A stretch of DNA of 64,000 bases, taken from NCBI GenBank assembly GCA_037447655.1, contig JBBHKE010002598.1, forward strand, positions 1 to 64,000, given 5' to 3'. The first letter of the stretch is position 1. Each line of letters starts with the position of its first letter. Below, one piece after another: positions 19,129-58,180 of this stretch. Below the pieces are notes generated by a model, which was not told where the DNA came from, did not search any database, and worked only from the letters and a program-made list of their open reading frames with translations. A program made the position numbers and the translations under genes. Origin of the DNA: Zygnema cylindricum (lineage: Eukaryota; Streptophyta; Zygnematophyceae; Zygnematales; Zygnemataceae).

Positions 19129-20986
19129 ATGGCTGCTTTTGCTGCAATGGCTTCCATGTCTGCTGTTTCTCTCCAGAATTCAGTTACATTAAAAAATGTC
19201 TCTGTTGACAAGAAATTCTCAAGGTCGGGCGTTAACTGTGTGAATCTATGCTCACCAAAATCCGTTCGACGCAGTTCAGTTCGCTGTCAGGCGGGAGATG
19301 ACAAAGGCCCTCTCTCTGCTGTAAGCTTTCAAACCTTTGTTACATTTTGATATGATTGCTATTTCCGCAATTGAGAAGGTTGAAAAGGCAACTTTTGGTA
19401 CATTGTTTTTTTCGATTAGTAGAATTTACATTCTAGCTGGTAATCTGACGTGCTTGACGTTTACATAAACATTTTCGGAACTTTGCCAAGTCATGAATCG
19501 GTGTAATTAAATTACTTACAAATGGATCTGCTATGAATTTTTAGTTTTTCACAGTAGCAATAATGTTTAAGTACTAACAATGTGATAACGATTATGAAAA
19601 TTATGTCTTACTTTTGAAGAATGCTACTAAATTAGCATTTATAGTTGACAATGGAAATGACTAGCTGACGCAACCTAGTCAATTCTGTTGTATTGCTTCA
19701 AATTCATCAACAAAGCACATTATGGCTGATGTCATACACAAGGTATTTAATAATACCTGAACTGATTTTTTTATTTCATGCAGGTCAAGGACACCAAGGT
19801 GCCTATCACTCGCGAAGGTGTGAAGCAGAATGAGGCAAATAATGAATCTGAGAAGCATTCAGTATTTGGAGCTGAGCCAGCATATGGTTTCCCTCGTCCT
19901 GAGAGTGACCGTCGTCCCGAGCTTGGAAACAAATCATTTGGAAGCGTTATGGCTTTTGATGGGCCTGGACCAGAAACAATCAATGGCCGCCTCGTAAGTG
20001 TCCAAAACTCTGACATATATCGGCAAATATCTGTTGGTATCTCTGCAAATATGACATATAATGGCAGATATCTGCTAGTATCTATGCAGATGTATATGAT
20101 TTGCTTCAATTTTACTGGGTTTGCTAATGTCACTGTAACAAGTTACACCAATGAAAAAATTCAAATTCTTGAACGGCAACCGTTGGAAAAACGAAATGTT
20201 GCTAAGTTAGAATGGTATTTCATTACAAACTTGCTGTAATCTGTCAAGACCCAGATATTCAGAATTTTTTGTTACGGTTTCGTAACAGTTTGATTAGAAC
20301 ATGTTCGTGACGGAGTACCACCCTTATTCTCCTTCATCCTGTTAAGATTATTTCTTAACTAGAACCTTACGTGTAGGTAATGACTTTGTTGTTGTGTCTA
20401 TTTCTGTGTTGCAGGCTATGCTGGGATGTGCCTGGGCTTTTATTGCTGAGCTTTACACAGGACAAAGAATTGTTGACCAGATCAACTACCCAGGAAGTCC
20501 TGGATTATACTTTTTGCTTGCGGCTACATCAACCATCATTTGGGCATCTCTCATTCCCATCTCCAATGGTGAAAGCCCAGATAGCCGAGTGTAAGTTACC
20601 ATGCCAAAGGATGAATTTCTCACATTTTTCAAATGCTTCCAATCTCAATAATTGGTTCAAAATTATTATTGCATCATCGAAAATTCTCACTAGTTTTTTT
20701 TCAAACTTCATTGTTATACTGCGTGATTAACCCATTTTTTAAAGACGTATGAAGTCTTTATGCAAAGATGGATAGCTTTCTTTCTGAATTGAAATTCTTG
20801 AACTTAATTTTATTGCATGTTTTTAGCTTGTTTTTTCATAATTTTTTTGTGTTATTTTCTTGCAGGAATGGACCTTTCACAGCAAAAGCTGAGCGTTGGA
20901 ATGGAAGACTTGCCATGATTGGTTTTGCCGGTATTCTTATTACAGAATACTTTACTGGACATGCTATCATTCCTCTAACCTTTTAG
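19129..20986 (+). CDS. ELIP-type chlorophyll a/b-binding stress protein, four exons
   Basis: Early light-induced proteins are thylakoid members of the LHC superfamily that bind chlorophyll and carotenoid and protect against excess light. Exons 19129-19320, 19784-19993, 20415-20590 and 20866-20986 join in phase (0, 0, 2) to 232 residues. Residues 1 to about 55 are rich in Ala/Ser/Val/Lys and end near VRCQAG, a typical chloroplast transit peptide. Helix 1 begins at ETINGRLAML (E128, N131, R133). Helix 2 is about residues 161-180. Helix 3 begins at AERWNGRLAM (E202, N205, R207). The paired E-x-x-N-x-R motifs in helices 1 and 3 are the chlorophyll-binding signature. The Pro/Gly-rich linker before helix 1 (PETINGR preceded by FDGPG) is ELIP-like. 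A one-helix or SEP-type protein is excluded by the three helices. Confidence 0.9.
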
Positions 20987-22026
20987 AAGGTTTGGTCCAT
21001 GCTTCATATTGTGAACTTATGTTTCCCATCTGTGGATAGTCACAATAACTTCCTGAAACAACTTTCGGGAATGATGATAGATCAATAATCTGTTATCAAT
21101 TTTGTACCATAGAGTTTCCTACTTTTGTAGCGATTTTGATAGTTCCTCTTGTTTTTCATCAAAAAAAGGTGAAACGTAGAGTGGACAATTATGTAATATA
21201 TCAGAGTGAAAAAAAAAGTTTTTGTGTGTTGTGAAAATATCCATTTTGGTTAATGATTCATTCTCTAACGCATTGTTTATTGCATGAGCATAGTTTGGAA
21301 CAATTCTCATTTGTACTTTTCATTTTTGCTAGTCATCGAAAACAATGAGATTTTTTATAAAAAAAATGTTTCAATCGGTTCCAAACATTGTTCACCCAAT
21401 TCCTCTGTTTTTTAGCTTTAGTCAAAGCTTGTCATCATTTGTCATAACCTCCAGATATACCGAATTGTGAAGAAGTGAAAAAAACTACTTTCAAATTCCA
21501 AGTCCTGGGTTCAATTGCAAACTATAAACACAGTTTTGTAACTCAATAGACATTCTCAAATTTGACAGAGGACCTTGCCAAATAACTGAAAGATTTAACC
21601 TCTGTACAGATGTTTACTGAGAAGAACTTTGTTAATAAATCTGAACCTCATTAAAATAACTATAATTACCTACAATAACGGCCATTGCATGGGAAATATA
21701 AAGCTTTGACAAAACGTTTAAAAAAAAACAAATGAAAACGCTTAAGATATACTTAGAACTACATTGGATTACTAAATCTTACTATCAATCTAAAATGAAA
21801 TGTGAAGAATCCCCAGGAATGTTACGTCATCAACAAATGCAAAAATACTTTCCTTGCAATTATAAAGGAAAAAAAAGAACTGTATATAAATAATAACATC
21901 ATTGTCACCAAATTTATTAGAGCACATTCAGAACTTTCTTTCTTCTCTTACTAAAACTCCATTCTCTCCCTAAATCCTTTCCAAATACTCACAACGATAA
22001 AAGAACAAAACTCAGAAAAAACAGAT
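20987..22026. other. Convergent 3' ends of the ELIP and CPI1 genes
   Basis: About 1 kb of AT-rich DNA between two stop codons on opposite strands. It presumably holds both 3' UTRs and polyadenylation sites. No open frame or repeat of note. Confidence 0.5.
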
Positions 22027-32985: not shown

Positions 32986-33188
32986 TACACCGCCCCTCGT
33001 TATTAATGTTAATAACACTAATTCTGTCGCGACTTTTTTTGGCCAAGAATCACAAAATAGTGTTAACAATATTATTTAAGGAAGTGGACCACAATAAACC
33101 ACGTCACCTTGCACTAAATTAGTACTATTAATTCTATTTTCACATTTACCCTATTTTTTCTCTAACACTAATAACGATGGGCTGTGTA
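32986..33188. mobile_element. MITE copy 16
   Basis: Ends TACACCGCCCCTCGTTATTA and ACTAATAACGATGGGCTGTG then TA. The interior has GTCGCGACTTTTTTTGGCC and AAGGAAGTGGACCACAAT. Its right part is repeated at 53771-53858. Confidence 0.85.
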
Positions 33189-33239
33189 GTTTCGTTTCGA
33201 GTACTGCACTGTAGTTTCTTTTTGTAGTTTCTTTTTCAC

Positions 33240-34135
33240 GTGGTTACTTCACGTTTTCAGTTCAATGTGAAGTTTGTTGAGTTAGGTTTCAATATTGATA
33301 TTATGCGGTTCAAAGTAAAGTCGTTATTTCAAAATTTGCGTTACTAAAACCATCTAGGTACAAAAGGGGTAAAACTGAAAAAAAATTGGAGACTAGAAGA
33401 ATCACAAGATAATAAGCTACCCCTAAAAACTGAAACGAAACAGAACAATTCTAACAAGAGCAAAGAACCAAAACAAAACAATACCAGAGTTAGACCGCCT
33501 ACAAAATGAAAAACCTTAGACTAGTCTATCCATAAACAAGTTAAGGTCCGCAACCACGGAGATCATGGATGTGAACCGGGTCCCTTGGTGGAAGGTTAGA
33601 AAGACCCCGTCAAGTGTGCTACGACGAACGAGTGCTGCAACTTGCGCCTGCTTAAGTGCAATTGAGACACGTTAACGATAGAAAACAACCAAAGGTCTCG
33701 GTGGAGGACTCTCCGGACCCTAAGATTCAAACTTTTTTCGTGCACATTGGCGAAAGAAGTCATCGAAAGACTTGTCCAAAGATATAAAATCTCTACTGCA
33801 AATTGGACAAATTGGTCCAAAGGGTCTTGATAAGCGTAGTCTATTTCCTTTGTAGCCGCAGCGTCCCGAGCCGCCACACCTGTATGTGAATCCGCGCGAG
33901 ATGATATGTGTGTCCTAGTCAGATCCGTGAGGACCACATCGCCGAGCGTCCTCCAAGCACCATGAATAAAAACCATGTCAACTCGAGGGCTCCGACAACC
34001 CTTAGATTGGGCCGAGGTGGGAGTATATTAAAAACCTCACGTTTGACGATGTAGCCTGCCTCGGCGCCAATGGCATCACGCACCAAATCATGCGCAACAG
34101 TTTGTTTTCCCCCATGCGAGCAACGAAGTTTATAT
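33240..34135 (-). pseudogene. Non-LTR-retroelement-like C-terminal fragment, copy A
   Basis: On the minus strand the most open frames read LVFIHGAWRTLGDVVLTDLT and, in other frames, FAVEILYLWTSLSMTSFAN, with frameshifts between them. The same region occurs at 53880-54968 (copy B, longest) and 57637-58180 (copy C). In copy B the upstream part has C-V-C-N-Q-P-I-D-D-E-G-I-H then a Gly-Gly and basic stretch. That resembles the Cys/His region and the R-V-D-L-V-F endonuclease-like strand seen after reverse transcriptase in some non-LTR elements. The assignment is tentative. Copy A is cut at 34136 by the Copia LTR. Its 3' side (33240-33590) is non-coding. Confidence 0.4.
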
Positions 34136-39830: not shown

Positions 39831-41808
39831 TCACTCTGCCTTTCCCGAGGGAGCAACCGAACTTCCTCCGAGCCGCAAAATCAGAGTCCAGCCAAACACC
39901 ACTTTGGCAAGGATGTCCAATATGCCATAGCAGGCCACTTCAGCGTCCACACTAATTGTGTTTGAACCCTCTCCAAAGGCCCAGACCACAGGGTACAGCA
40001 GCCAGACGAAGATCAGCAGCGACGACAGGCTGTCGTACAATCCACCTAAACCGTAGGATCAACAAAAACAAAATCAGTACATTTAAACGCTTGTACTATG
40101 CAATTGTGTCCCATAATAGAAGTATATTTTATACAGATTCTCCGGATAAAATATGAGCATAGTATGTTGACACTACATATAGCGTTCCATACAATTGCGA
40201 ACTGTACACATTTGTAAAAGGATACCAGACGAATTTAAATCTTGGCGGGAGATTTTGTATAAAGATTGAAGCACATGGCCAGAAACGGAAAAGGGGAGAC
40301 AAAGCGATTGCATTCAAAAGAACCTAAATACTTTCCCACAAACAGTGAAGGTGTGCTCTGGAAACAAACATGCATTCTATGTTGCCATTCATCTCTCACC
40401 CATTGCTTTGCTCCTTGTATACACTTGGCGACGAATAGAAATGGCGAGGTCCCAGAAGATTAACACCATGAACAAACAACCAAATGAATACCATCCCCAT
40501 CTGCTCCAGCCGACGGCAAGTGCTCCAAAAAGACCAGTTAAGATCATGAGAACATCATAGAAGATGATACGAGCCGTGTGCTCGAATGTAGGAATGCCCA
40601 AGAGTACAAGATCTAAGAGGAGAAGTGGCGTAGTAAGGAGCCAATCCACATATCGGGCATAATGAAGTTCACGATATGTCGTTCCTTCCACGAGAACCAG
40701 TGTGGAACCGCCACCTGTTGCCTGCACCGGTTTCAAAATTGCAACTTCAGCTTCAGTACCAGTTGCAAAATCTAGCAGCAAATCTCTATCGAAAAAAGAG
40801 ATATGTTTCAAATCAACTTATAGCGATAAGTAGTGGCAAGTAGACATTTATCACATTGACACTTACGCGGAAGGTATGGAACTAATTTTGGTTAGCACTT
40901 ATGTTTCCATGCCAACGACAAACTGACTTATCAAACAACACTAATATATATCCTGTTTTAGCTGTAGAATTGTGGTCAATAAAAACAATCAAACATTTTT
41001 GTTCAAGGAGCTGGGACTGGAGTAAGATGCAGCACTAATAGATAAAATTTGACAAATTGAAATGACGTTTAAAACTGCAAAGTAAAAACTATGAAGAATA
41101 TAATCTAGCAATGTTGACTCCAGTCGAATCTGGCTCAAATTAAAAATACAAAACATCCTGGCACGTTACTTATGGTCATCAGCCTAAAATTTTAAAGCAG
41201 TGTGCTTTCTACCACCTAGTAACATTTCAAATTTTGAAAACTTGACAGAAGATATCAGCAACATGAGATAGTAACGAGACTTCAAAGGGAGGAACTAACC
41301 ATGGTGAAGTAGGAGAGTGTAGCGATAGCCATAATTGCATATGTAACATCTGATTGCCAGAAAACAGAAAAAGACCAGGATTTTTATTGAAAAAACTAAA
41401 CTGTTTCAAGCATTATTGATTAGAAATGCTGTAAGAAAAATCAACTCTAAAGCTAAAGGTGGCTAAACTTGGAGTAGGAGTGACTTACTCCGTTACAAAG
41501 ACCACATTACTACCTAGCATTCGCAGAAAATACTATTTTCTTACATGAAAGCATTTGACAGCATATTTCAATTATTTTGGTTTATTATTCTAAGTGCTTT
41601 TCAAACCAATCTTTCCACTTTCCACTTTAGCTGTAATTCTTCACAAGACCTTTGCCAAAAACTTACAGTAATGAAGCCGCTCATCAAGAGGGCTTGAATT
41701 TGGACGACGATAGGAAAGAAAAGCCAGTCCTAATGTAGAGGCAAGGAATATTCCAAATACAGTGTAGAGAATAGCATAGCCGCCTTTGTCCAAATATTCA
41801 AAAGCCAT
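39831..41808 (-). CDS. Type-1 microbial rhodopsin, predicted light-driven proton pump, four exons
   Basis: Seven-helix retinal protein. Exons 41808-41667, 41349-41300, 40721-40400 and 40045-39831 join in phase (1, 0, 1) to 242 residues; all introns are GT-AG. Helix words: YVTYAIMAIATLSYFTMATG (B), ARYVDWLLTTPLLLLDLVLL (C), TGLFGALAVGW (D), FVWLLYPVVWAFGEG (F), YGILDILAKVVFGW (G). Residues matching bacteriorhodopsin: R87 (R82), D90 (D85 proton acceptor), T94, D101 (D96 donor), D120 (D115), W186, E197 (E194), E207 (E204), D215 (D212) and K219 (K216, retinal Schiff base). The D-T-D pattern in helix C predicts outward H+ pumping, not a channel or halorhodopsin. It is shorter than most algal pumps, with almost no C-terminal tail. 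An in-frame ATG at 41841 would add 11 residues. Exon 4 is duplicated at 63803. Confidence 0.93.
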
Positions 41809-43440: not shown

Positions 43441-45639
43441 TGCAAGCGAAGAGTGTGATAAAAATATAAAAAGTTTATTGTTTTACCGCTCATTTACCAC
43501 GAAAAACTTGCAAACTGCATTATATGTAACAGTTTTTTGTTTTTTTTATGTACAAAATAGTACAAAAGGAAATTCATTAACGATTTTTTGCGATTTGATC
43601 AAATGGTTCAATGCGTTTGTTACGTATAATTCGTCACGTACGGTACGTTTGCACTAATAGTCGTGAACAACTATGCTTTTTAGTTTTGCTCATAGTTCAA
43701 AAGTAGGTGAAAGTAGGTCCATACAATATGCCTATTGTATGTAAAACATACAATATGACCTTATGACCCATATTGTATTGGTCCCAAAAAAAAAAAAAAA
43801 TAGTAACAGGGTTAAGTTGCACATTGATCGATAGAGAATAAAACGTCATGTCTAAATTTTGAAAAACATTCGGACAATTTTTTTTTTAATTTAAACCGTC
43901 AGATTTGGACGATCGGAAGGTCGCTGATCAAAGTAGCGATCCAAAACGATCACATGAAAAGCCCATAACACAACTTACGATAAGACTATATGTCATATTA
44001 ACGTCTGCAATATTGAAGGCCACACTAAATAAAGCCTCAAATGGACCAACGAAGCAGTATGGGACGATAAAACACAAAAAATCCACTATGCCAAAAATAT
44101 TCCACACTGGTTTTTTTTTCCGGGTTTCTTTCCCACGGAATGTCATCCTACGCCGTGTCAGTTCTGGCGGCGTGCGCTGTACTATAATGATACGTCAGAT
44201 TCGTACGTTCGTACTAGTGTGTGCACAACGCACACACATACAGTATGTCAATTCTACGCGAGTTTTGTGCCAAGTTTTGTGAGCCTACCAAAGGTCTGCA
44301 GTAAAAACGCCTACTTTTGAACTATGGTTTTGCTTCATTTGCTCGCGCGTGTTTTTATATGAGCAGCAAGCCACGGAATTTATGGCGTCTCGTACGCGTA
44401 TTTTTATCTGAGCGACGAGTCGCGGAATTTATGGCGTCTCCAACGGCGGCTTCCTTGAGCCGTTTTGCTTCATTTGCGCACGAGTATTTTCATCTGACCT
44501 CCACTCTGTCTTCAAAAGTAAGTCGCCGTTGGAGACGCCGTAAATTTCGGCGCTCGCCTGTCGTGCATGTGTCAAATAACGTGAAGATGCATGCAATATC
44601 ATCAGCTCTGCTCCACTTAAACCGAAATGATAAAAATATGTTGTGAATGAAATATGACATGAAAGAGAAAAATAAATAAATATAACAACAGGCAAGGTGA
44701 AAGAAAAAGAAAGGTCAACGACTTAGCTGGTTATGGTTAGGTCGGTTTATTACTAAGCCGATGGATGGCCACTAGGCCCCACGGTCTATTTATATTCCTT
44801 GCAGGAGTTATCTTATCGAGAATAATCTGAATTTATACTTAAATAAAACAAATCAAAGCATAAACAACCGAGAAAGACAAACAACAACTGAAAATGACAA
44901 TATGCCCGACACTTATGAGGTTTGAGATAGCCAAACTCAAAAGATGCGCATAAGCCAAATAGAAATAAATACACAATCACAAGAAATAAAAACAACAAAT
45001 CAATAATCCCAACATGCAACTTCCACACTAATTAAAGTTCAGCCACAGCCGAGAAAAGAAGTTTGTGTCGTGAGAACGCGGTCGAAATCCACTGAAAAGG
45101 ACGAGAAAAGTGAAGGGAAACCGTGTGGGTCTTGGCCGAAGCCGTATAGATTAATATGTAAGGCTTTAAAAGATATTGATAATGTAATGGAAAACTAGAC
45201 GCTTCACGCAAAGGCAAAAAATCGCCTCTCAGTTGTCCGGACAATTTTACAAATAAAAAGATGGCTGCATAAAATCCTCAATACTGAAAATAAATAATTC
45301 CTGCGCTTGAAAATTGTGTGCAGGAAATGATCTAAAATGAGCTAAGCAACAAAAACTACGCCTAGTGAAAACAGACCAATCAGAGTACAACGTGCTATGT
45401 AAGTATTTGCGTCCAGTTTGGATTCAGCCAATAGGAGGGCGAAATCCTATGCCCTACGTTACAGAATCTATAACCTACGGATTAAAACCCTTCCTATCTA
45501 CGCGTGAATGCATGAACCTCCAAATGGTTCACGACTTAAAATGGTCTAATGACGTCGCTTCGTCAACACTAACAGCCGATTTATCTGTCATTTGCATCGA
45601 CGATCTAGATATGATGTAACAAAAATTGCATATTTGGCG

Positions 45640-46030
45640 TCGACTACCGAGATACTCCCTCGCGTGAAATGATTCCAAATTGTCGTCGGTCGAGATTTCG
45701 GGAAATGAAAGTAGGTACGGTAGGACAAAAGGTACGGTCCAATTTGTAGTCGCGGGAATTCCGGGTAATGTAAGTCGTACGGTCAACGTAAAATAATCGA
45801 ATCCACCGTCGGCGGAAATCGCGGAAGATATATATGGTACGGTAAGTTTATGTGTACCAACGTAAATTCGGAAATGAGTCGTCGGCGGAAAATCCGGGAA
45901 AAATGAATACGTACGGTCGACGTGAAACGGTACGATTCACTGTCGCTGGAAATCCCGGAAAGTATAAGTCGTAGGGTACAAGTCGTCGCGGGAATCCCGG
46001 GAACTATATGCAGTACTGCATAACTCGTAC
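45640..46030. repeat. Degenerate tandem repeat, about six units of 55-70 bp
   Basis: Each unit has GTCGTCGGCGGAAATCCCGG-like followed by GAA...TA and CGTACGGT(C/A)AACGT. The antisense reads as repeated G-I-P-A-T-T peptides, explained by the repeat. Confidence 0.7.
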
Positions 46031-47253
46031 GGTCTTGCGAAACCCAAATAACACCCAAATATAAATTAGTGTGGCGGTTGCCCGTCCTAACACCTAAATA
46101 TAAACAATTAAAATGGCCGACGAGATGCGGCATGGCACGCCGCTAGTTCGTTGCACTTATCAGTTTTTGAGGTATTGAACATATAAATTTTTAAAATTTG
46201 AAAGTTAAAAATAGTTCGAATTTTACGACGAATTTTATAAAGTTTGAAATTGTTTTATGCGCACTCTACGTAGTATTCGTTAGTTTACTCCGTGCGTTTT
46301 ATGCGCATAGGACATCTATGTTTTTCAAAAAGTTTGCTTCGACTCTAACCTATAAGAGAAATGTATGCTTTGCATCACGGCAAAATGTTTTTTTTATATG
46401 GACGCCGACACGCTGGTCATTAATTTTGCACGTTTGACCTTTTTACACTTCAAAGTTGCTTATTAAAATCGCACTAAACATATTTCTCTTTTAACACGAT
46501 ACCCCTGTTACTTTTAGAACAATTTGGGCGTTCAACATGGCTTTTCACGGTGTGATCCAACAACTTTGAAAAGAGCGAGCTCTTGTTTGTATTGGGTTAT
46601 TCTCGTTTCGCGGTATTTCCGCGAAGCAACATACTAACATTTATTTGTTGACTTGAAAGTATCACGTCATCGTACGAAATGTGCGATAACTTTTCGCGTT
46701 ACTATTTGAAGCGTCCGCGAACGAAACATATTATTTCGTTTTGCGTTATTTTATGTTTTTGGGCGCAGGTGTCATATTTTGCGTGCAGGTGTTTTCGTGT
46801 GACGACACGTGTTTAAGTCAACGTTTGGAGTTAGTCGTTTCGAAGGAAGAAAGCACGTGCTACTTTCTTCATGAAAACGTACTTAAAGTGTGCACAGTCA
46901 GCTAGGGACAGACTTCGTCGCTACACTAAGTCCTGTTTGTCTTACCTTGTTGTCTCTTAGTGCAGAGTAGCGAGTACATTGGCAACAGTGTATATGTGCA
47001 GTATATATCCTAATATATTGAATGAATTAATCAATCTATCTTAGATGATTAATCTTGGAGTAAGAGATTATTTAAAGAGAAGAGAGAAGAGAGAGAAGAG
47101 AGAAGGGAGATGATGTAAAGAGGCTTCGGCCAAAAACACTTATAGATCTTTTTGGCTGAATATTCCTCTTGTTTATTATAGCTTCCGTTGTGTAATGTTT
47201 TATGTTTTGTGAATTTATTTTGAGTGAATGTCTTTTGCTTAAGATCCTACAAT

Positions 47254-47265
47254 TGGTATCGGAGC
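47254..47265 (+). promoter_or_regulatory. Copia 3 primer-binding site
   Basis: TGGTATCGGAGC is one base from TGGTATCAGAGC, the usual Copia primer-binding site complementary to initiator tRNA-Met. It lies 2 bases after a CA (47250-47251) that would end the 5' LTR. The left boundary of that LTR (somewhere in 46.5-47.2 kb) could not be set. Confidence 0.7.
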
Positions 47266-47293
47266 TATTGCTTCGGAGTTAGAGAGGGAGCGC

Positions 47294-48560
47294 ATGGGGA
47301 GGAAGAACAATAGAAATACTCCTTCCCCCATGTCGACTTCGGAGAGAGCAAGAGAGTTCAGTTTTTCGGGTTCTCAATTTGAGGAGACCCGGAATACGGA
47401 GAGAAAATTTGAGGAAATGTTTGACACACTTATGAGATATGTAGATTCCCGTTTTCAAACTCAACCGAGTGAGAGCAAAGAAAACACTTCCTTTCCGGCT
47501 ACCGATCCCTTTAGAGGAGGAGCTAATGACAGTGAGAGAAAAGAGAGGTTAAGAAGGGAAAGTTGAAGATAGAAGAAGAATAGTCCGAGTTTGACGAAGG
47601 ATTGGAAAACGAAGAAAATTATAATATGTCGAGGAAATCCGTGGCCTTTAATGGCACCAATTATGCCGTTTGGAAGAAGTTTATTTCAGGCCAACTTATT
47701 CTCAAGAAGCTTTGGAGGATTGTTAATGGAGAAGAGAAAACGCCACTCGAAAGTAAAGCACATGCTCAATGGAGGTTGAAGGATATTGCGACAACGGCCG
47801 GTTTGATGAAAAAATACACTTCTTCCGTGCTTGATCATTTCCTTGCTCACGCCACGGCCCATGAGTGTTGGCAAGCACTTGAGGAGCAATATGAGAAACG
47901 CGTTGAGAACAAGGGTCAATATGTTTATACGGACTTTATGAATTTTAAAATCAAGTCAAATGAATTGATGGATGATGCCGTGAAGCGCTTCAATATTATA
48001 CTCGAGCAATTAATCAACAATGGCCGAGTTATCTTGGATGCGGATAAGTTAAGCGTCTTTATTAATGCTTTACCGGAGAGGCTTTCGCATCTTAAAGCTA
48101 TTTTACAAGAGAAGGCGGATAACACCTTCGGATTCACTGTCAATTTTATCAAAATGTCGGCGGGAACTCCATCGGCTTCTTCAAGTGGAGGAAGAGGAGT
48201 CTCAACTCTACTACTCCCGAAACCCCGGGCCTTAACTATGCCGGTGGAAGAGGAAGTGGTAGAGGAGGTGGCCCGAGAGGTGGTGGTGGTGGCCAGGGCA
48301 ACAAGAGGGATCAAGGTCGTCCACCGAAGGTCCCTTCGGATCTTTCCAATGTGACATACTACCGGTGTAACCGGCTTGGACATTTGTCTTCATCTTGTCC
48401 GAATAAGGATAAGCAATGTCATTTTTGCGGTAAGTGGGGGCATACGATCCCTCAATGTTATGCAAAGAGTCGAGATTTCGGAAGTCGAAGAGGAGGTAGA
48501 GGAGGTGATAGAGGCGCCCGAGGTGGTGGTCGTGGTTATGATAATGCAAATTACTTTGAC
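47294..48560 (+). pseudogene. Copia 3 gag with zinc knuckles
   Basis: The N-terminal frame 47294-47566 (Ser/Glu-rich) ends in a stop. The gag core follows in another frame from 47602: SVAFNGTNYAVWKKF, LLDHF-type helices and WQALEEQYE, typical of UBN2/Copia gag. A frameshift near 48200 moves to a Gly/Arg-rich linker. Then come an imperfect knuckle (YRCNRLGHLSSSC, first Cys lost) and a perfect one (CHFCGKWGHTIPQC). An RGG-like region closes the segment. Confidence 0.8.
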
Positions 48561-49088
48561 TATGGTAATGAAACCGATGATGATTTTCCGGTTCTTTACC
48601 TTACCCTTGATTCGGTAAGTAGTGGAGGAAATTTGGACAAAGAGTGGATTATTGATACGAGGGCATCTCATCATGTTTGCACGGATGCCACTTTGTGTGA
48701 TGACATGAGGGAACTTACGGTTCCAAATTTTGTCACGGTTGCAAGCGGCCATGTCATTTTGGTTGGTACGGTTGGCAAGGTTTGGCTTGATCTCCCTTTA
48801 TGGGATAATGATGGGAAAGAGAGATCGACAGAGTATCGTCTTCAAAATACACTTTATATTCCGGACGGTTCGGTAAATTTGTTAAGCGTTCCACAAATCC
48901 AAAAGAGTGGTGGAAGCTTACTTGCGAGAGGTGATCAATCTATCGAGATTTGGAATGAGAAGGGGAATGTAATTGGAGAAGGAGTTGTAACGGATGCGAA
49001 TCATAGTCGGCTCTTATGGAGGAGGCCGAAATCTAAAGTCCCCACCGAGGGAATTTCAAAAGAGTTGAAAGGTGATCTTACCTTATAG
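48561..49088 (+). pseudogene. Copia 3 protease
   Basis: In frame with the second knuckle. The active-site motif reads WIIDTRASHHVC: Asp kept, the Gly of the usual D-(S/T)-G-A-S changed to Arg. YIPDGSVNLLSVPQ and SGGSLLARGDQSIEIWNEKG follow, as in Copia proteases. Confidence 0.8.
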
Positions 49089-50102
49089 CATCATCGGATG
49101 TGTCACACATCCGAGGTAAGTTTGAAGAAGATGATTCGTCATTCTTCGGTGAGGGGTTTGGACCTCGCATCCGGTGAGGAGGTGAACGGATGCGGAGGAT
49201 GTAGCAAAAGACGTCAAATTCGGAAATCCCATCGGAATAAAGACATCAAGCATCGAGCTCAAAATCCTTTAGAGGTTGTTCACATGGATCTTTGCGGACA
49301 TATTAAACCTGAGACAATTGGAGGCAATAAGTATACTTTGGTGATTGTTGATGACTTCTCTCGGAAATCATGGGTGTAATTATTGGAAAAGAAATCGGAT
49401 GCATTTGAAAAATTTAAAGAATGGCATGTAATGGCCGAGAGGCAAATTGCTAAGAAGCTTAAGTCCATTCGTTCGAACAATAGAGGGGAATTTGTTGTTT
49501 TTGAGGGGTATTGTAAGGAGTGGGGGATAAAGCATCAATTCACGGCGCCTTAATCTCCGGAGTCAAATGGAGTGGCCGAGAGGAAGAATCGTACCTTACA
49601 AGAAATGGTCCGTGCGATGGTTCATAGCTCCGGACGAGAGAAGTTTTTTTGGGGAGATGCAATTCTTACGGCGAATTATATTTGTAACCGAAGACTCACT
49701 TCGATTTCCGGAAGTAAAAAACCGGAGGAGTTATGGAGTGGGAGAAAGCCCACGGTTTATCATTTGAGAATTTGGGGATGTCATGCCACGGTTTATGTGG
49801 AATCAATCAAGAGGAAGGGGAAATTTGCTCCAAGGTGTTGGCCGTGAATTTTTGTTGGTTATAGTGCGAAGGGGAATTTGTACCGAGTGTATGATCCGGC
49901 TCGTCACACCGTGGAGGAATCTCGGAATGTGGATTTTCATGAGGATCTCAAATCCGACATGAATTTTGTGGGGAAATTAAAAGAGAATTTGGATTTTTAT
50001 GAGGAGAGTGAAATTGAGAATTTTCCGTTCATTGGGGATTCGAAATCCGATGAGGAACCGAATGTAAAAAGTCAGAAAAAAGAAATTGGGGAAATCGGTT
50101 AG
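49089..50102 (+). pseudogene. Copia 3 integrase
   Basis: The Cys part of the HHCC region is CGGCSKRRQ. The core has VVHMDLCG (first Asp kept), SIRSNNRGEF (second Asp changed to Asn) and SPESNGVAERKNRTLQEMVR (Glu kept). TAA stops at about 49377 and 49552 and a TGA at about 49845 break it. The C-terminal part (IFVGYSAKGNLYRVYDP) is present. Confidence 0.85.
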
Positions 50103-50192
50103 AGTTGAATTTGAAAAAAAGAGTAACGGATCTTTGGATTCCCGAGTGCCTTCGAACATTCGGAAATCTCAAAGCTCTAAATCGAGCCCATT

Positions 50193-50254
50193 CGCCAAAA
50201 ACTAGATCGATTGGACCAATCTCCAGTAAGTGATGGTTGCCCACAATCCGAATG
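50193..50254 (-). repeat. 62-bp displaced copy of the methyltransferase segment
   Basis: Matches 52441-52502 with two differences. It encodes the V-G-N-H-H-L-L-E-I-G-P-I-D-L-V-F stretch of the methyltransferase, but lies at the far end of the gypsy fragment, fused between truncated RT and the Copia 3 remnant. Confidence 0.9.
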
Positions 50255-50299
50255 AGGGAGTTTGTGACTACGAGGATGAAGAATTGGAGCACTCGATAA

Positions 50300-51360
50300 G
50301 GTGGTTTTTAATTTTTGAAATGCGGAAATCTGATCGGGACCCCATATAAACGCCACTTCTTTCATGAGAAGGTCGTTTAACATAGATGCGATGGTGCTAA
50401 AATTAGATACAAACCTGCGATAATAATTAGCAAGTCCGAGAAAGGCTCGCAGACTTGTGAGGTCCGTGGGAGCAGGGAATTTACTGATTGCCTCTACCTT
50501 TGCTTCGAGAGGAGTGATCCCCTCAGCCGAGATAAAATGGCCGAGGTAAGGCACTCCCTCGACTCCAAAAGTGCATTTCGTTGGATGACATTTTAATCCG
50601 ACCTTTTTTAACTCAGTCAATACCTATTCGATCTGAGCAGCGTGCTCTTCCATAGTAGCCAAGGCAATGATGAGGTTATCGATGTAACATCTAGCAAACT
50701 TACAACCTCCAAGAACGGAGTCCATGACTTTTTGAAATACTGTCGGAGCATTTTTCAGTCCGAATTGCATTACGGCCCATTCTCATCGGCCGTCGCTCCC
50801 CCAAAAGGCAGTTTTATGCCGGTCTTTTTCCTCTATCTCAATTTGATTGAATCCCTGACGGAGGTCAAGGATACTAAAATACTTTGCTCCGCCTACGTGA
50901 TCAAATATTTCTTCGGCAAGAGGCATGGGCTGACGATCTTGAACTGTTCTAGCATTTAGTTCACGATAGTCACCACACATTCGACGTTCAGTAAATTTAC
51001 CCTCGGAATCCTTTTTCCGAGGCATGACAGTGGGAGCTGCAAATATGGAGTCTGACCGATAAATTAGGCCAACTTCCTCTAGTTGAGCACATCGCTTGTC
51101 TACCATTTCCCACCGATAAATTAGGCCAACTTCCTCTAGTTGAACACATCGCTTGTCTACCATTTCCCATTCAGTTTCAGACAAACGATGTTTCGGTTTA
51201 AATATCGGGCGGTCATCTTGGAGATCTATCGACATCTTATAAGCGGTGTGACGACCCAAATCGTTCATAGAAAAGGCAAAGGCATCGACATTTCGTAAAA
51301 CTACGTCATTCAGTAACTCTTGTTCGGTCTTTGTTAGATTGGTGCCGAATTTCCATTTAG
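50300..51360 (-). pseudogene. Ty3/gypsy reverse transcriptase, inactivated
   Basis: Reads K-W-K-F-G-T-N-L-T-K-T-E-Q then PIFKPKHRLSETEWEMVDK, APTVMPRKKDSEGKF, RMCGDYRELNART, SILDLRQGFNQIEI, KTAFWGSDGR, QFGLKNAPTVFQKVMD and LKCHPTKCTFGVEGVPYLGH, which is gypsy RT in canonical order. The catalytic box is YIDN (50675-50686) instead of Y-x-D-D. A tandem duplication of about 58 bp (51055-51172) doubles EMVDKRC-QLEEVGLIYR. A TGA near 50783 replaces the Trp after GSDGR, and a TAG lies near 50623. RT stops at the SAPILHP region, before RNase H. Confidence 0.9.
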
Positions 51361-51769
51361 GAGCATCGGGATTTTTCGGTTGTCATAGCTTCCATAGCTT
51401 GTGCAAAGGCTAACTACTCACCTACGATAAGAGTTTGACCTAACTCGTAAGCTACATGTGACTTTTTAAGGCAATTAACCGAATGATTCCAACTACGTGT
51501 TCGAAAAGCAGCACCCCAATGAGGAGTGGGTGGAATATGCATGAAACTTGCAGACTGGACAACCGTGTATGCAAGCATAGACGAAGGCATATGGCTAAAA
51601 TTGAGGAAATCGTAGATAGAGATTTGCGGAACTGGTGGAATTGGAGAAAGAAATAGGAAAAATTGAAATGTGGTCCCTTGGAGAGTACGATGGAAAGATT
51701 TTCTTGATGTATTCCCCCCCCCAGCTGGTTGAGACGGATGCAGCTGAGAGTGGCGACCAGCTGCAAACC

Positions 51770-52750
51770 CAAGACCTAAAACAAAACTCAAAGACAGAGG
51801 GTCCATGACACGACCTAATAAAGTGCATTTTTGACGTTCTGTAAGACCAAGAGCCACTGTAGTGCCAGGAATGAAATGCATGAGATGTTCTCGTTCTGTA
51901 GAGGTAGGCTCTTCGAGCTCACCGGTATGAATGTTTGGGAGCATGCCAGGACTTTCATTAGAGAATGCATGTGAATGTGGGTAAAAACTAAGGTAGGAAG
52001 CACCTAAAGAGGTTGACTCGGGACATTAACAATGAAATTAGGGGGATAGTCATTTTGAATGCAAGGCTGCGCCTAATGGAAAAGAAGAAGGGCAGCCTGA
52101 ATGTTTGTAGGAGGAGGACGAACTGACAAATTGGCCTCACGGAGTCGACTAATATCGATCAGGTGCATCCATTTGGAGCAAACCCGGTGTGCTAGTGAAC
52201 CATGGCGAGCAGCGTCAATAATAAGAGGCGGACCAATTAATTGTTCGATCCGTTGATAATTAGCCAAGATTGTAGGTCTTGGATCATTATAGGCTGCCAC
52301 GTTTTCCAAGATATACCCCATATGATGATCTAAAGTTTGTAAAAAATGCAGGATGCGAACCAATTCAAAAAATAATTTGGTGCGGGGATCGGCTAATCCG
52401 AGACCTTTCCAGGCCGGAGAAATTCCCTGGCACTCCCATCCGCCGAAAACTAGATCGATTGGACCAATCTCCAGTAAGTGATGGTTGCCCACAATCCTAA
52501 TGTCTTGTGGGAGAGCAGTATGCATACGCTCGTATGCAGATTTTGGTAACAAATGCGGGTATTGGGAATGCAACAGATTACAGTGATGTAATTGTGCTTT
52601 CCATGCTAACGGATCAATCTCAACCGAATAATAAAATCGGATTAATAATCCATTCCGCAAACATGCTAGGAGGGAAGTGCCTATTGCAGCGAAGAGGTCC
52701 AAAATCACCCATCTATTTGGATGAGGTTTCAATTGGACCAGATTCTAATT
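51770..52750 (-). pseudogene. C5-cytosine DNA methyltransferase embedded in gypsy pol, DNMT3-like
   Basis: Such enzymes transfer methyl from AdoMet to DNA cytosine. The main frame (52750-52073) shows motif I WVILDLFAAIGTSLL, motif II/III SVEIDPLAWKA, motif IV PIDLVFGGWECQGIS with the catalytic Cys (E-C instead of the usual P-C), KGLGLADPRTKLFFELVRIL, motif VI GYILENVAAY and an IIDAARHGSLAHR segment like motif VIII of DNMT3. After two stops and a frameshift, the next frame (51944-51770) gives TSTEREHLMHFIPGTTVALG and KCTLLGRVMDPLSLSFVL, resembling motifs IX-X. Motif order is not rearranged, unlike DRM. There is no PWWP, ADD, UBA or BAH domain. It is broken as it stands. Confidence 0.85.
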
Positions 52751-52825
52751 AATGGGAAGAAACACAGAAGAGTTTGTAGGGACTGGGATTGTAGGAGAGA
52801 CCGGAGAAAGTGGAATTGATAAGGT

Positions 52826-53545
52826 TTAGTTATAGATTCGGTCAAATTCCCTCGTATTTATAAGAAAACCTGGGTCACTGAAATTTTTTGGTAAGTAAGA
52901 ACTATCTGGCATAGTTTCTTCTGTTGACAATGAATGAAATATTTCGGCCCCCACCGAATTCCCTAAAAATGCAGGTATGGATGTGGCGGAATATGCCATA
53001 ACAGACATGGACTTCCTAGCGGAAATTAGCGGAATGCAGATTTTGCGTTCTGGGAAGTTAGTGGGCCTATAAGCAAATGTCTGATCATGCATGTCAACTC
53101 CACCCCCTACACGAAATATAACGTCCTGTTCCACTAGGCATTCATAGTCGCTACATTTAATGACCAGAGCGTGAACCGAGATCTCAACAAAGTCTGTGGC
53201 TGTTCCGTTCTGTAACCTGAAAATGAGCAGTTCCTTAGTGATTCCTAAGACTAGCTCGGTTGTACCCGCTGATGTTAACAAGCGAGTAGAAGTGGACTAA
53301 AGTTTGTCCGGAGTTAGACCAAGCTTGAGTGCAAAGATAGAGCCCAATATCACCGGCTTTGCACCCGTATCCATGAGAGGCAGGGAAGGGGCTATACCAT
53401 TGATCAACAATGCACCCTTCCCGTTATCCAAAAAACTGATTTGAGGATCGAGGGAATTTCGCTCCTCTATGGAAATAGGCTGAATAGCAGCAAGATACAG
53501 ATAGAAAGTACAGATAGACAATTGCAAGTTAATAGAGAGCATATT
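52826..53545 (-). pseudogene. Ty3/gypsy aspartic protease
   Basis: The frame from 53542 has ALLINGIAPSLPLMDTGAKP with the D-T-G-A active site (Asp codon 53371-53369), then VILGSIFALKLGL, and after a TAG at 53297 continues in frame to ECLVEQDVIFRVGGGVDMHD and AYRPTNFPERK. Length and motif order fit a single-domain retropepsin. A linker of about 30 codons with two stops leads in the same frame into the methyltransferase. Confidence 0.8.
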
Positions 53546-53770: not shown

Positions 53771-53858
53771 ACATCACCTTGCACTAAATTAGTACTATTA
53801 ATTCTAATTTCACATTTACCCTATTTTTTCTTTAACACTAATAACTATGGGCTGTGTA
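53771..53858. mobile_element. MITE copy 18, right end only (duplicate of copy 16)
   Basis: Starts abruptly at ATCACCTTGCACTAAATTAG, matching 33101 onward, and ends ACTATGGGCTGTGTA. Homology to segment A continues past it. Confidence 0.75.
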
Positions 53859-53879
53859 GTTTCGTTTCAAGTACTGCAC

Positions 53880-54968
53880 TGTAGTTTCTTTTTGTAGTTT
53901 CTTTTTCACGTGGTTACTTCAGGTTTCTTTTTCACGTGGTTACTTCACGTTTTCAGTTCAATGTGAAGTTTGTTGAGTTAGGTTTCAATATTGATGTTAT
54001 GCGGTTCAAAGTAAAGTCTTTATTTCAAAATTTGCGTTACTAAAACCATTTGTGACAAAAGGGGTAAAATTGAAAAAAAAATTGGAGACTACAAGAGTCA
54101 CAAGATAGTAAGCTACCCCTAAAAACTGAAACGAAACAGAAAAATTCTAACAAGAGCAAAGAACCAAAACAAAACAATACTAGAGTTAGACGGCCTACAA
54201 AATGAAAAAACCTAGACTAGTCCACCCATAAACAAACTAAGGTCCACAGAGATTATGGATGTGAACCGGGTCGATTATGGATGTGAACCGGGTCCCTTGG
54301 TAGAAGGTCAGGAAGACCCCGTCTGTCATCAGCTAGTATGCTACGCCAAAAGAGAGCTACATCTTGCGCCTGTTGAATTGCAATTGAGACACATTGACGA
54401 TAGAACGCAATTAGAAGTCTCGGTGGAGGACTCTTCGGACCCCGGGATTCAAACGTTTTTCGTGCACACTAGCGAAAGAAGTCATCGAAAGACTTGTCCA
54501 AAGATCCAAAATCCCCACTGCAAATGGGACAAACTGGTCCGACGGGTCTCGGTGAGCATAGTTTCTTTCCATTGTAGCCATAGCGTGCCGAGCCGCCACA
54601 CCTATAAGCGAATCCGCGTGAGATGAAATGTGTCCCAGTCGGATCCGTGAGGACCACATCGCCGAGCGTCCTCCCAACACCATGAAGAAAAACCAAGTCA
54701 ACCTGAAGGCTCTGACAACCCTTAGATTGGGGCCGAGGTGGAAGTGTATTAAAAACCTCACGTTTGTCGATGTAGTCTGCCTTGGCGCCAATGGCAGCAA
54801 TGGCAGTAATGGCACCATGCACCAAATCATGCGCGACAGTTCGTTTCCCCCAATGCGAGCAACAAAGCTTAAATGGATTCCCTCATCATCAATGGGTTGG
54901 TTGCAAACGCACTGAGCCCCCCCGTAAAAGCGGAGGGTGAGGCAAACCCAACCGCAAGCATAGAGCAA
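53880..54968 (-). pseudogene. Non-LTR-retroelement-like C-terminal fragment, copy B
   Basis: Longest of three copies. Minus-strand words: CVCNQPIDDEGIH, AHDLVHGAITAIAA-like (frameshifted), DYIDKREVFNTLPPRP, LQVDLVFLHGVGRTLGDVVL, GPVCPICSGDFGSLDKSFDD. The Cys-x-Cys...His element and the V-D-L-V-F...D-V-V-L strands recall the region after RT in some non-LTR elements carrying a restriction-like endonuclease. That is a resemblance by eye, not an established match. The 3' side (53880-54300) is non-coding and shared with copy A, including two short local duplications absent from A. Confidence 0.4.
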
Positions 54969-55812: not shown

Positions 55813-56412
55813 CTACTCTCTGGCGATACCGACCAAGAAAAACTTTTCGAAACCAACCACAAGTTCTCGACAGAAGGGACAACTATCCCCTAACAATTTC
55901 CCGGCACATATACGACAAACGGTATGATTACAAGGCTTGACGATATAATCGACGATTCTCGATTCTTCCATACAAATCGCACATAAGATAGAATTGTGGC
56001 TTTCCCTTCTCTCCTCCTCCTCTCTCCTCCATATTGGAGTTCTCGACTCTTCCGGAGGAGTCGAAGGTCCGTCCAAAAAATCCGTATTAGAGTTGAAAGA
56101 CGATCCACTAGAAGACAAAAAAACCTCGTCGATTTCTCCACTAGACGACAAAGAAACCTCGTTGTTTCTTCCACTAGAATACATAATATCCTTGTCGCTT
56201 GTTCCGCTAGCAAACAAAATAGCCTCGTCGTTTATTTCACTAGGAGACAAAAAGAGCGAGTCTTCCGATTCTTCGATGACTGTCGATGACCTATTGCCAG
56301 GTGTCAAATGATGAGTGGATGATAAATCGTTGGGAAGAAAACAAGGAATTTGATTGGATAGACAGAAAGGACGATCGTGAGGAAGTACGGTTGCCACGTC
56401 GCAACTGTCCAT
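55813..56412 (-). CDS. RING-finger protein, probable E3 ubiquitin ligase
   Basis: A single open frame of 199 residues. Residues 144-181 form a C3HC4 RING: C144-x2-C147, C161-x-H163, C166-x2-C169, C178-x2-C181 (words CAICMEESRIV, KPCNHTVCRIC, CPFCR). RING domains bind E2 enzymes and promote ubiquitin transfer. Residues 56-104 are about four imperfect acidic/Ser repeats (S-S-G-x-x-D-E-V-x-L). Residues 126-138 are charged (WRREEEERR). No membrane segment or substrate-binding domain is visible, so the target is unknown. The ATG directly follows AAATCCACAG, a good splice acceptor, so this may be the last exon of a longer gene with exons upstream around 57.0-57.5 kb. Pentapeptide-level similarity to a specific family was not found. 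Confidence 0.75.
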   Translation of the reverse strand: MDSCDVATVLPHDRPFCLSNQIPCFLPNDLSSTHHLTPGNRSSTVIEESEDSLFLSPSEINDEAILFASGTSDKDIMYSSGRNNEVSLSSSGEIDEVFLSSSGSSFNSNTDFLDGPSTPPEESRTPIWRREEEERRESHNSILCAICMEESRIVDYIVKPCNHTVCRICAGKLLGDSCPFCRELVVGFEKFFLVGIARE

Positions 56413-56499
56413 CTGTGGATTTAAAAGAAAAATGGAAAAAAGAAAATCGATAAGAAAAAAAAAGGGTGAAACGAGGAAAAAATTGCTGAGACGGAAATC

Positions 56500-57030
56500 G
56501 AAACGGAAACTGAAGTTAGTATTGGAACTAGAATTTGAATTAAATTTGAGTTAAATTGAGATTAAAATAAAATTTAAATTGAAATCAAAGTCCAAATTGA
56601 AAATGAAGTCAAAATCAAGACCGAATAAACTGATGTTAACATTGAAATCTAAATCGAAAGTGAAATCGAAAAACAAATCATTATCAGAAAAGTGAAGAGT
56701 GAAAATCTGGAAATTGACACTGAAACTGAAACAAAAACTGAACTGGAACCGAAACTGAAAGTGAAACTGAAACGGGAACTTGGACAGCAACTGAACTGAA
56801 AATGCAAATGAAACTGAATCGAAACTGAAAACTGAAACTGGAACGGAAACTAAGACTGGAACTAAAGCTAAACATGAACTGAAATTGAAATTGAAACTGA
56901 AACTGAAACTGAAACTGAAGCCGAAACTGCAACCGAAACTGGATAGGCACCGGAACTGAAACTGAAAATGAAAAAGAAACTGAAACTATAACTTTAACTG
57001 AAACCGACACTCTGTGACTGACATTGAAAC
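56500..57030. repeat. Degenerate CTGAAA hexamer array
   Basis: Long run of GAAACTGAAACTGAAACTG and variants (GAAATTGAA, GAACTGAAA), upstream of the RING frame. The 108- and 79-codon Phe/Ser/Gln-rich antisense frames are artefacts. The same hexamer, in the opposite orientation, lies upstream of CPI1. Confidence 0.9.
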
Positions 57031-57149: not shown

Positions 57150-57516
57150 AAAATGAAACCAAGATATGCCAAAACCTCAAAATTTGCACCAATTCTGGCA
57201 AACCCAAGAGAAGGCATCCCTCACTCTCACTCTCCCCCTCTCCTCTCCCCCTCCCCCCCCCTCCCCCTCCTGCTCTCCCCCCCCTCTCCCTCCCCCCTCT
57301 CCCTCCCCCCTCCCCCTCCNNNNNNNNNNCTCTCAGGAGGTGGCACTGGAAACCAACAAAAGATAGCAATTGCACAGAGTTAACGTGAATTCGTCCGCGT
57401 ACAACGTCGTGAGCAAGCAGCATCGTGTGATCTGCACCAGAAAGACTGGAAGGTGGTTCCCTGGGCCAAGTGTAGGTACTAGAGGCACCAACGCCTGGAA
57501 TTGAACAAATACCTAT
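57150..57516 (-). CDS. Possible exons of an unrecognised gene, split by an assembly gap
   Basis: 57516 to about 57345 on the minus strand starts after TCTGATCAG (acceptor) and is open with balanced composition: IGICSIPGVGASSTYTWPRE, SLSGADHTMLLAHDVVRGR, HVNSVQLLSFVGF. A second stretch, 57215-57150 (PSLGFARIGANFEVLAYLG), lies beyond the CT tract and the N run. Neither is recognised. They could be upstream exons of the RING gene or a separate, truncated gene, since LINE-like copy C begins at 57637. Confidence 0.35.
57219..57329. repeat. CCCCTCT tract ending in an assembly gap
   Basis: CTCCCCCTCCCCCCTCCCC-type homopyrimidine sequence runs into 10 N (57320-57329). The true length is unknown. Confidence 0.95.
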
Positions 57517-57636
57517 CTGATCAGATTCAAAAAAGTAAAACATCCGCCAGATTGAGACCATAACAAAACAAAACCAAGAAACGAGAACAATCTTAAAAAG
57601 ACAAAGCAAAGTCAAAAATCCCCATCGAATGATAAA

Positions 57637-58180
57637 GGTCAGAAAGACCACGTCTAGTGTGCTACGACGAACGAGTGCTGCAACATGCGCCTGCTTAAGT
57701 GCAATTGAGACACGTTAACGATAGAAAACAACCAAAGGTCACGGTGGAGGACTCTCCAGACCCCAAGATTCAAACGTTTTTCGTGCACATTGGCGAAGGA
57801 AGTCATCGAAAGACTTGTCCAAAGATATAAAATCTCTACTGCAAATTGGACAAACTGGTCCAACGGGTCTCGGTGAGCGTAGTATATTTCCTTTGTAGCC
57901 GCAGCGTCTCGAGCCGCCACACCTGTATGTGAATCCGCGCGAGATGATATGTGTGTCCTAGTTAGATCCGTGAGGACCACATCGCCGAGCGTCCTCCCAG
58001 CACACCATGAATAAAAACCATGTCAACTCGAGGGCTTCGACAACCCTTAGATTGGGCCGAGGTGGGAGTATATTAAAAACCTCACGTTTGACGATGTAGC
58101 CTACCTCAGCGCCAATGGCATCACGCACCAAATCATGCGCAACAGTTTGTTTTCCCCCATGCGAGCAACGAAGTTTATAT
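57637..58180 (-). pseudogene. Non-LTR-retroelement-like fragment, copy C
   Basis: Corresponds to copy A from about 33590 to the Copia LTR junction. The 3' non-coding part present in A and B is missing, so the duplication breakpoint is at about 57637. Confidence 0.4.

Follow-up and report, generated by a model that had tools for sequence, protein, structure and literature searches.

The window analysed here is the whole of a 64,000-nucleotide stretch from Zygnema cylindricum (GenBank assembly GCA_037447655.1, contig JBBHKE010002598.1, positions 1 to 64,000 of the forward strand; contig C1949 in our numbering). Positions 50255–53545 of it hold a 3.3-kb fragment of a decayed element. It belongs to a Ty3/Gypsy-type retrotransposon family that is present in high copy number and carries a cytosine methyltransferase within its polyprotein. 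On the minus strand, read from high to low coordinates, the fragment encodes a protease, a cytosine-C5 methyltransferase and a reverse transcriptase (RT). A preliminary description, made from the letters of the window alone, had called it a Gypsy pol gene with a methyltransferase between protease and RT, and relatives elsewhere in the host genome keep this placement. The complete family polyprotein runs gag (with a zinc knuckle), protease, cytosine methyltransferase, RT, RNase H, DDE integrase and PHD finger.

We searched the host genome (352.8 Mb in 2,689 contigs) with the 223-residue methyltransferase of the window and obtained at least 151 matches, a lower bound that comes from scoring 150 of 1,401 candidates. 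We retrieved twelve copies, each together with 10 kb of sequence. All twelve contain the protease, the methyltransferase, its C-terminal part and the RT in that order, with identities per aligned stretch of 45–87%, 70–91%, 46–83% and 38–92%, respectively, and all twelve contain an integrase. A PHD finger stands at the C-terminus of ten; of the other two, L040 is interrupted by an inverted repeat, and in L046 the retrieved stretch ends. A second set comprised the 19 best-matching loci after the window's own (L018–L036), four of them shared with the first set. Here the protease lies 5′ of the methyltransferase at every locus and the RT 3′ of it at 18; at L025 (C2100:71126-74794) the methyltransferase is in place and the RT is inverted on its other side. 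Because the pieces recur in the same order across copies in the host genome, chance fusion is excluded. The twelve copies were chosen by their methyltransferase, mostly for long frames, so elements of the same clade that lack one would have escaped notice. Two distant Gypsy RTs (34–39% identity; L049:1469-2164 and C1112 at about 20937-21956) had no methyltransferase match, an observation limited to flanking stretches, with less than 1.5 kb available on the 5′ side of one of them.

One relative, L037, carries the entire polyprotein in a single open frame 2,395 codons long. A Pfam scan of this frame in five pieces gave zf-CCHC (E 7.9e-4) and Asp_protease_2 (8.1e-4), both below their cut-offs, followed by DNA_methylase (1.7e-12), RVT_1 (8e-31), RNase H (4.9e-33), Integrase_H2C2 (1e-15), rve (2.8e-12) and PHD (3.4e-10). 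Five of nine C-terminal frames also matched PHD in Pfam (L038, L039, L041, L042 and L043); in L044, L045 and L047, whose C-terminal frames lack such a match, tblastn located the finger further on. The window copy has neither the C-terminal PHD finger nor the split repeats that fuller copies carry, and the preliminary description accordingly missed both, along with the copy number.

The Pol order of protease, RT, RNase H and integrase (rve) is that of Ty3/Gypsy elements (Metaviridae). The integrase core rve was found by Pfam in nine copies (L037, L038, L039, L041, L042, L043, L044, L045 and L047), and among the Pfam matches listed for those nine there was no tyrosine recombinase family of the kind that marks DIRS elements. 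The family also has the TG...CA ends and short target duplication of a DDE integrase. It departs from the Ty3/Gypsy definition at its termini, where split repeats take the place of two identical full-length long terminal repeats (LTRs). Pattern scans for close relatives found no methyltransferase or RT in a viral contig collection and no RT in a genome contig collection; the pattern GGWECQG occurred at 11 loci of the viral collection, none of them, by eye, in a methyltransferase.

Conservation of the methyltransferase

The window enzyme carries motifs I (DLFAAIGTS), IV (GGWECQGIS), VI (LENV) and a VIII-like motif (GSLAHRVCSKW), in the usual motif numbering. We compared these positions in 40 copies, namely 28 including the window's own and 12 more drawn from stop-free matches; 27 of the 39 non-window copies are stop-free. 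The motif IV cysteine is present in 39 copies, as is the glutamate before it. The E of motif VI ENV is kept in 39 and its N in all 40, and the F of motif I is kept in 39, the remaining copy being gapped there. Motif IV usually has a proline before the cysteine. The preliminary description had marked the E-C pair for comparison. The pair is the norm of the family; decay of the window copy as its source is ruled out by its occurrence in 39 of 40 copies.

The methyltransferase is under purifying selection. Among 27 stop-free copies, the ratio of nonsynonymous to synonymous change (dN/dS) had a median of 0.192 (interquartile range 0.138–0.285, maximum 0.78) over the 85 of 351 pairs that fell within 0.05<dS<1.5. 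A further 255 pairs were saturated at synonymous sites (median dN 0.179), and 11 lay outside the limits. Taken as a whole, the description of the family as a high-copy Gypsy element with a selected methyltransferase is probably correct.

One label in the preliminary description fared less well. A motif resembling IX/X had been named in the C-terminal part of the enzyme, and a small profile built from five sequences scored that part at -1.2 bits, with E values of 110 among the 777 open reading frames of the window and 140 in a set with 1,000 shuffles of the part itself. The label stands by eye only. AlphaFold models reached pLDDT values of 40.7 and 33.4 and were set aside.

Split terminal repeats and insertion age

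Ten of the twelve copies were examined with their flanks. Six of them (C1344, C829, C1915, C2602, C449 and C232) show the layout A-coding-B-A-B, in which repeat A starts with TGTCATGCC and repeat B ends with CACGACA. A run of G directly precedes the first B, and the internal B/A junction reads GACA-GC-TGTC. By eye, all six have TG...CA ends, and five are flanked by perfect 4-bp target duplications (TTGG, AAGG, CCCT, CCCC and CCAT); in C449, three of the four bases agree. No primer-binding site was recognised by eye after repeat A.

These integrase-type ends on split repeats are the mechanistically odd part of the element. Together with the A-coding-B-A-B layout they point to a DDE integrase acting at the A/B boundary, which would cut and join there, perhaps by way of a circular or end-joined intermediate. 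The window itself contains a solo A-B repeat of the same family about 4 kb from the fragment (44559..46137, minus; A 46137-44751, B 44749-44559, edges set by eye). Its ends are TG...CA and it is flanked by GGCG on each side; this suggests A-B as the unit of recombination.

Within single elements, the two A repeats differ at 0 of 931 aligned positions in C1344, 4 of 1,385 in C829, 6 of 1,474 in C1915, 38 of 1,213 in C2602, 141 of 1,106 in C449 and 81 of 731 in C232, with 0, 0, 1, 7, 128 and 318 gap columns omitted, respectively. From this spread, some insertions are very young and others old.

The window copy and its neighbours

The preliminary description had placed protease, methyltransferase and RT in order on one strand and mostly in one register, and this is borne out, with the C-terminal methyltransferase part frame-shifted. 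The protease begins with an N-terminal part bearing the active-site DTGA (53300..53545, minus), assigned to Pfam Asp_protease_2 and found in all twelve genome copies; in this short piece the match (E 0.036, 15.2 bits) is below the cut-off of 24.3. The region continues past a TAG with its register unchanged (52829..53296, minus), a piece that is conserved in the copies and gave no Pfam match when scanned alone. The methyltransferase itself occupies 52076..52744 (minus) and is identified by PF00145 (DNA_methylase in 52744-52073, E 2.1e-8, 34.4 bits, cut-off 22), by its match to DNMT3A and by its motif columns in the 40 copies. Its C-terminal part and a linker follow at 51417..52025 (minus) in a shifted frame. 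This stretch holds EREHLMHF...TERQKCTLLGRVMDP, the piece that is IX/X-like by eye. It gave no Pfam match alone, is present in all twelve copies at 46–83% per stretch and is in frame in six open copies. The first part of the RT (50786..51382, minus), also seen in all twelve copies, matched RVT_1 in 51382-50783 (E 9.5e-7) at 29.2 bits, slightly below the cut-off of 29.6. The end of the RT and the start of RNase H (50255..50623, minus) matched PF17919 (E 0.0011, below cut-off) and aligned with the 12 copies at 65–92% per stretch, a range that omits a second match of 37% in L040 belonging to another Gypsy element.

A single register serves the protease, the methyltransferase and the two RT pieces, and 52025-51417 is read in another. 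In the shared frame, the window copy has stops at 53299, 52828, 52747, 52075, 51385, 50785 and 50626, and eight further stops lie between 52006 and 51412 in the frame-shifted part. Several of the stops are TAR, and we considered an alternative code that reads stops as glutamine. It was set aside, the copies with long frames being open under the standard code. Seven other long frames in the window, taken stop to stop and hence stop-free by construction, use 34 CAA and 11 CAG, which also counts against that code.

Rearrangement has added to the decay. A 57-bp tandem duplication, in two copies 98% identical, lies inside the RT (51055..51168, minus; repeat family D7). A 68-bp second copy of the methyltransferase piece 52435-52502 lies at 50187..50254 (minus) and is 98.5% identical to the methyltransferase of L041, 97.1% to those of L042 and L043 and 95.6% to the window's own. 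This piece forms the junction, at 50187, with a truncated Copia-type element on the plus strand (47243-50186), which has gag and Pol_BBD by Pfam and an integrase part by eye. The DNA-level match of the fragment to three fuller copies is confined to 50187-53496. Queries for gag and for the RNase H-integrase-PHD part, taken from one fuller copy, found neither beside the fragment in the window; the single significant gag match, at 48300-48479, lies within the Copia element, in its zinc-knuckle region.

Other features of the window lie further off. A microbial-type rhodopsin exon at 40392-40817 (minus) matched Bac_rhodopsin (E 1.3e-21), its best solved match being 6gyh (E 4e-21), presumably a green-algal protein. 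A dispersed repeat occurs at 53771-54800, 33101-34078 and 57635-58123, with copies about 84–85% identical; its open frames reach 189 codons and gave no notable Pfam match. An open frame at 55816-56550 (minus) ends in a C-terminal RING finger (E 1.7e-8). An imperfect, AACTGA-like tract of 6/12-bp repeats spans 56490-57024, and pyrimidine-rich tracts lie near 57216-57330 and at 23.4–24.6 kb.

Known relatives, origin and possible role

The precedent in Klebsormidium that the preliminary description named is real. The closest known element is KnitGypsy-Dnmt3 of Klebsormidium nitens (de Mendoza et al. 2018, PMC5890265), and on the features compared the present family appears to be of the same kind, a kind already known from a green alga. 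Set against the description in PMC5890265, the two share the domain composition of an LTR Gypsy element with a methyltransferase in the Pol frame, the DIRS-like repeats A-coding-B-A-B (seen here in six of ten copies; legends of Figs 1 and 4 there) and purifying selection on the methyltransferase (Ka/Ks < 0.2 for KnitGypsy). The Klebsormidium enzyme is described there as Dnmt3-related, unrearranged and intronless, and the present one is unrearranged and intronless too. The present family shows a target duplication, of which no mention was found for KnitGypsy-Dnmt3 in PMC5890265, and its genome of 353 Mb yields at least 151 matches. Neither PHD nor zinc finger occurs as a term in the main text of that paper; the figures or supplements of the same paper may show a PHD finger, the E-C pair or the order protease-methyltransferase-RT. 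SymbioDIRS-Dnmt3 of Symbiodinium also combines a methyltransferase in the Pol polyprotein with A-coding-B-A-B repeats, and its enzymes performed de novo CG methylation in yeast (PMC5890265), but it uses a tyrosine recombinase and belongs to another retroelement class, whereas the present family has a DDE integrase. Some Gypsy elements end in a chromatin reader, either a chromodomain or, in Ectocarpus, a Tudor domain (PMC12477816). The position of the reader C-terminal of the integrase is the same here, but a PHD finger takes the reader's place and shares its polyprotein with a DNA methyltransferase. Literature searches, judged from their listings, turned up no PHD finger in a Gypsy element, which is a weak negative.

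The source of the methyltransferase can be read in more than one way. Among the 48 listed matches of the window enzyme to solved structures, the nearest is DNMT3A (E 2.7e-8), followed at a distance by HaeIII (0.0093), HhaI and DRM2 (0.22 each) and DNMT2 (1.3); DNMT1 is not on that list. The open copy L037 gave DNMT3A at 2.1e-10 and HhaI at 0.0042. The motifs run I, IV, VI, VIII from N to C, not in the permuted order of DRM, and DRM is therefore excluded. A phage, a bacterium or a DNA virus of the host, in place of a host DNMT3 gene, is nevertheless a serious if minority candidate as donor. The methyltransferase matched 442 of 50,697 phage records by tblastn, and four of the five enzymes picked from these records outscored DNMT3A (52.8 bits) in blastp against the window enzyme: one from a Croceibacter phage (62.8), two from Vibrio phages (62.0 each) and one from a Roseobacter phage (55.5), with a Mycobacterium phage enzyme at 52.4. 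The stretch CQG...GKG..L.DPR at motif IV also resembles phage enzymes. Motif VIII (AHR.R..W.NL), however, aligns with DNMT3A, and a six-copy profile places DNMT3A ahead of two phage enzymes, those of the Roseobacter and Mycobacterium phages, and behind the Croceibacter and both Vibrio ones. In a 12-row tree the element enzymes share a long stem; the tree does not place DNMT3A and does not decide the origin. The tree and the comparisons were made without streptophyte DNMT3 or Klebsormidium sequences. The preliminary term "DNMT3-like" is thus provisionally fair as the nearest eukaryotic name, and not as proven descent. That a Gypsy fragment merely fell into a host methyltransferase gene or pseudogene, making the fusion an accident of the locus, would suit the broken and rearranged state of the window copy, but is extremely improbable: the arrangement recurs in 12 of 12 copies and 18 of 19 best-match loci, which rules out a host gene, and exists as one 2,395-codon frame with terminal repeats and a target duplication.

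A second question is whether the domain, though kept, is still a DNA methyltransferase. It may instead bind nucleic acid or methylate RNA, such as the genome of the element, with E-C reflecting a changed chemistry. At the motif IV position of the glutamate, proline is found in DNMT3A, in HhaI and in all five phage enzymes compared, KnitGypsy-Dnmt3 was not seen to methylate DNA in yeast (a result that its authors call inconclusive; PMC5890265), and no CpG depletion was found in the window fragment or the fuller copies, as would fit an enzyme that leaves DNA unmethylated. Still, we consider this unlikely, since the catalytic cysteine, the E and N of ENV and the motif I phenylalanine are kept at the frequencies given above, the pattern to be expected if the cytosine-C5 enzyme still works.

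Retroelements are normally targets of DNA methylation. If the enzyme of this family does methylate DNA, its most likely role would be to mark the new copy or its site, an assignment that is tentative when self-marking is taken alone. The methyltransferase would be released with, or retained on, the RT/integrase complex and would methylate new cDNA or the chromatin at the insertion. A new copy would then be born marked as silent or as self, would do less harm to the host, and the family would persist. Methylation of new cDNA by element enzymes has been proposed by the authors of PMC5890265, and the preliminary description suggested that the element could have methylated its own cDNA or genomic copies. 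The PHD finger, which its domain name suggests may bind histone H3, could read H3 tails and direct the integrase towards chromatin in a particular state. In the fullest form of this proposal the element would mark itself and be steered by chromatin: one polyprotein would combine an enzyme that writes DNA methylation, a finger that reads histone tails and an integrase, split repeats would be integrated by the DDE integrase at the A/B boundary, and copies would arrive methylated in chromatin chosen by the PHD finger. As a complete account we regard it as rather doubtful.

Several observations weigh against the account of the element and its enzyme given here. CpG observed/expected ratios give no sign of long CG methylation: they are 0.87–0.94 in the coding parts of eight fuller copies, against 0.55–1.14 in the flanks of six elements, and 0.80 in the window fragment, a value at or above that of 67 of 121 sliding stretches. 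Per site, transitions between the two A repeats are only slightly more frequent in the CG context (0.073) than in CHG (0.053) and CHH (0.054), and the negative yeast result for the Klebsormidium Gypsy enzyme, inconclusive as it is, points the same way. Motif IV lacks its usual proline. The dN/dS sample is biased towards open frames and hence towards low values; the median rose to 0.245 once copies with stops were added (188 of 351 pairs, 27 copies). In the few usable pairs of eight copies with both parts open, RT is more constrained than the methyltransferase (0.068 over four pairs against 0.172 over six). Finally, the A-coding-B-A-B layout is missing from four of the ten flanked copies: in C1407 B-A-B is confined to one end, no terminal repeat was found in the examined flanks of C2577 and C783, and L040 is bounded by an inverted, 97% identical repeat (C1112:11328-12288 and 19644-20607) and not by direct split repeats.

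A high-copy Gypsy family that combines a selected methyltransferase with young insertions would make the benefit of self-methylation to a selfish element directly testable. The added PHD finger may supply a reader alongside the writer. How such an element replicates and integrates is a concrete question that arises from its split repeats and their integrase-type ends.

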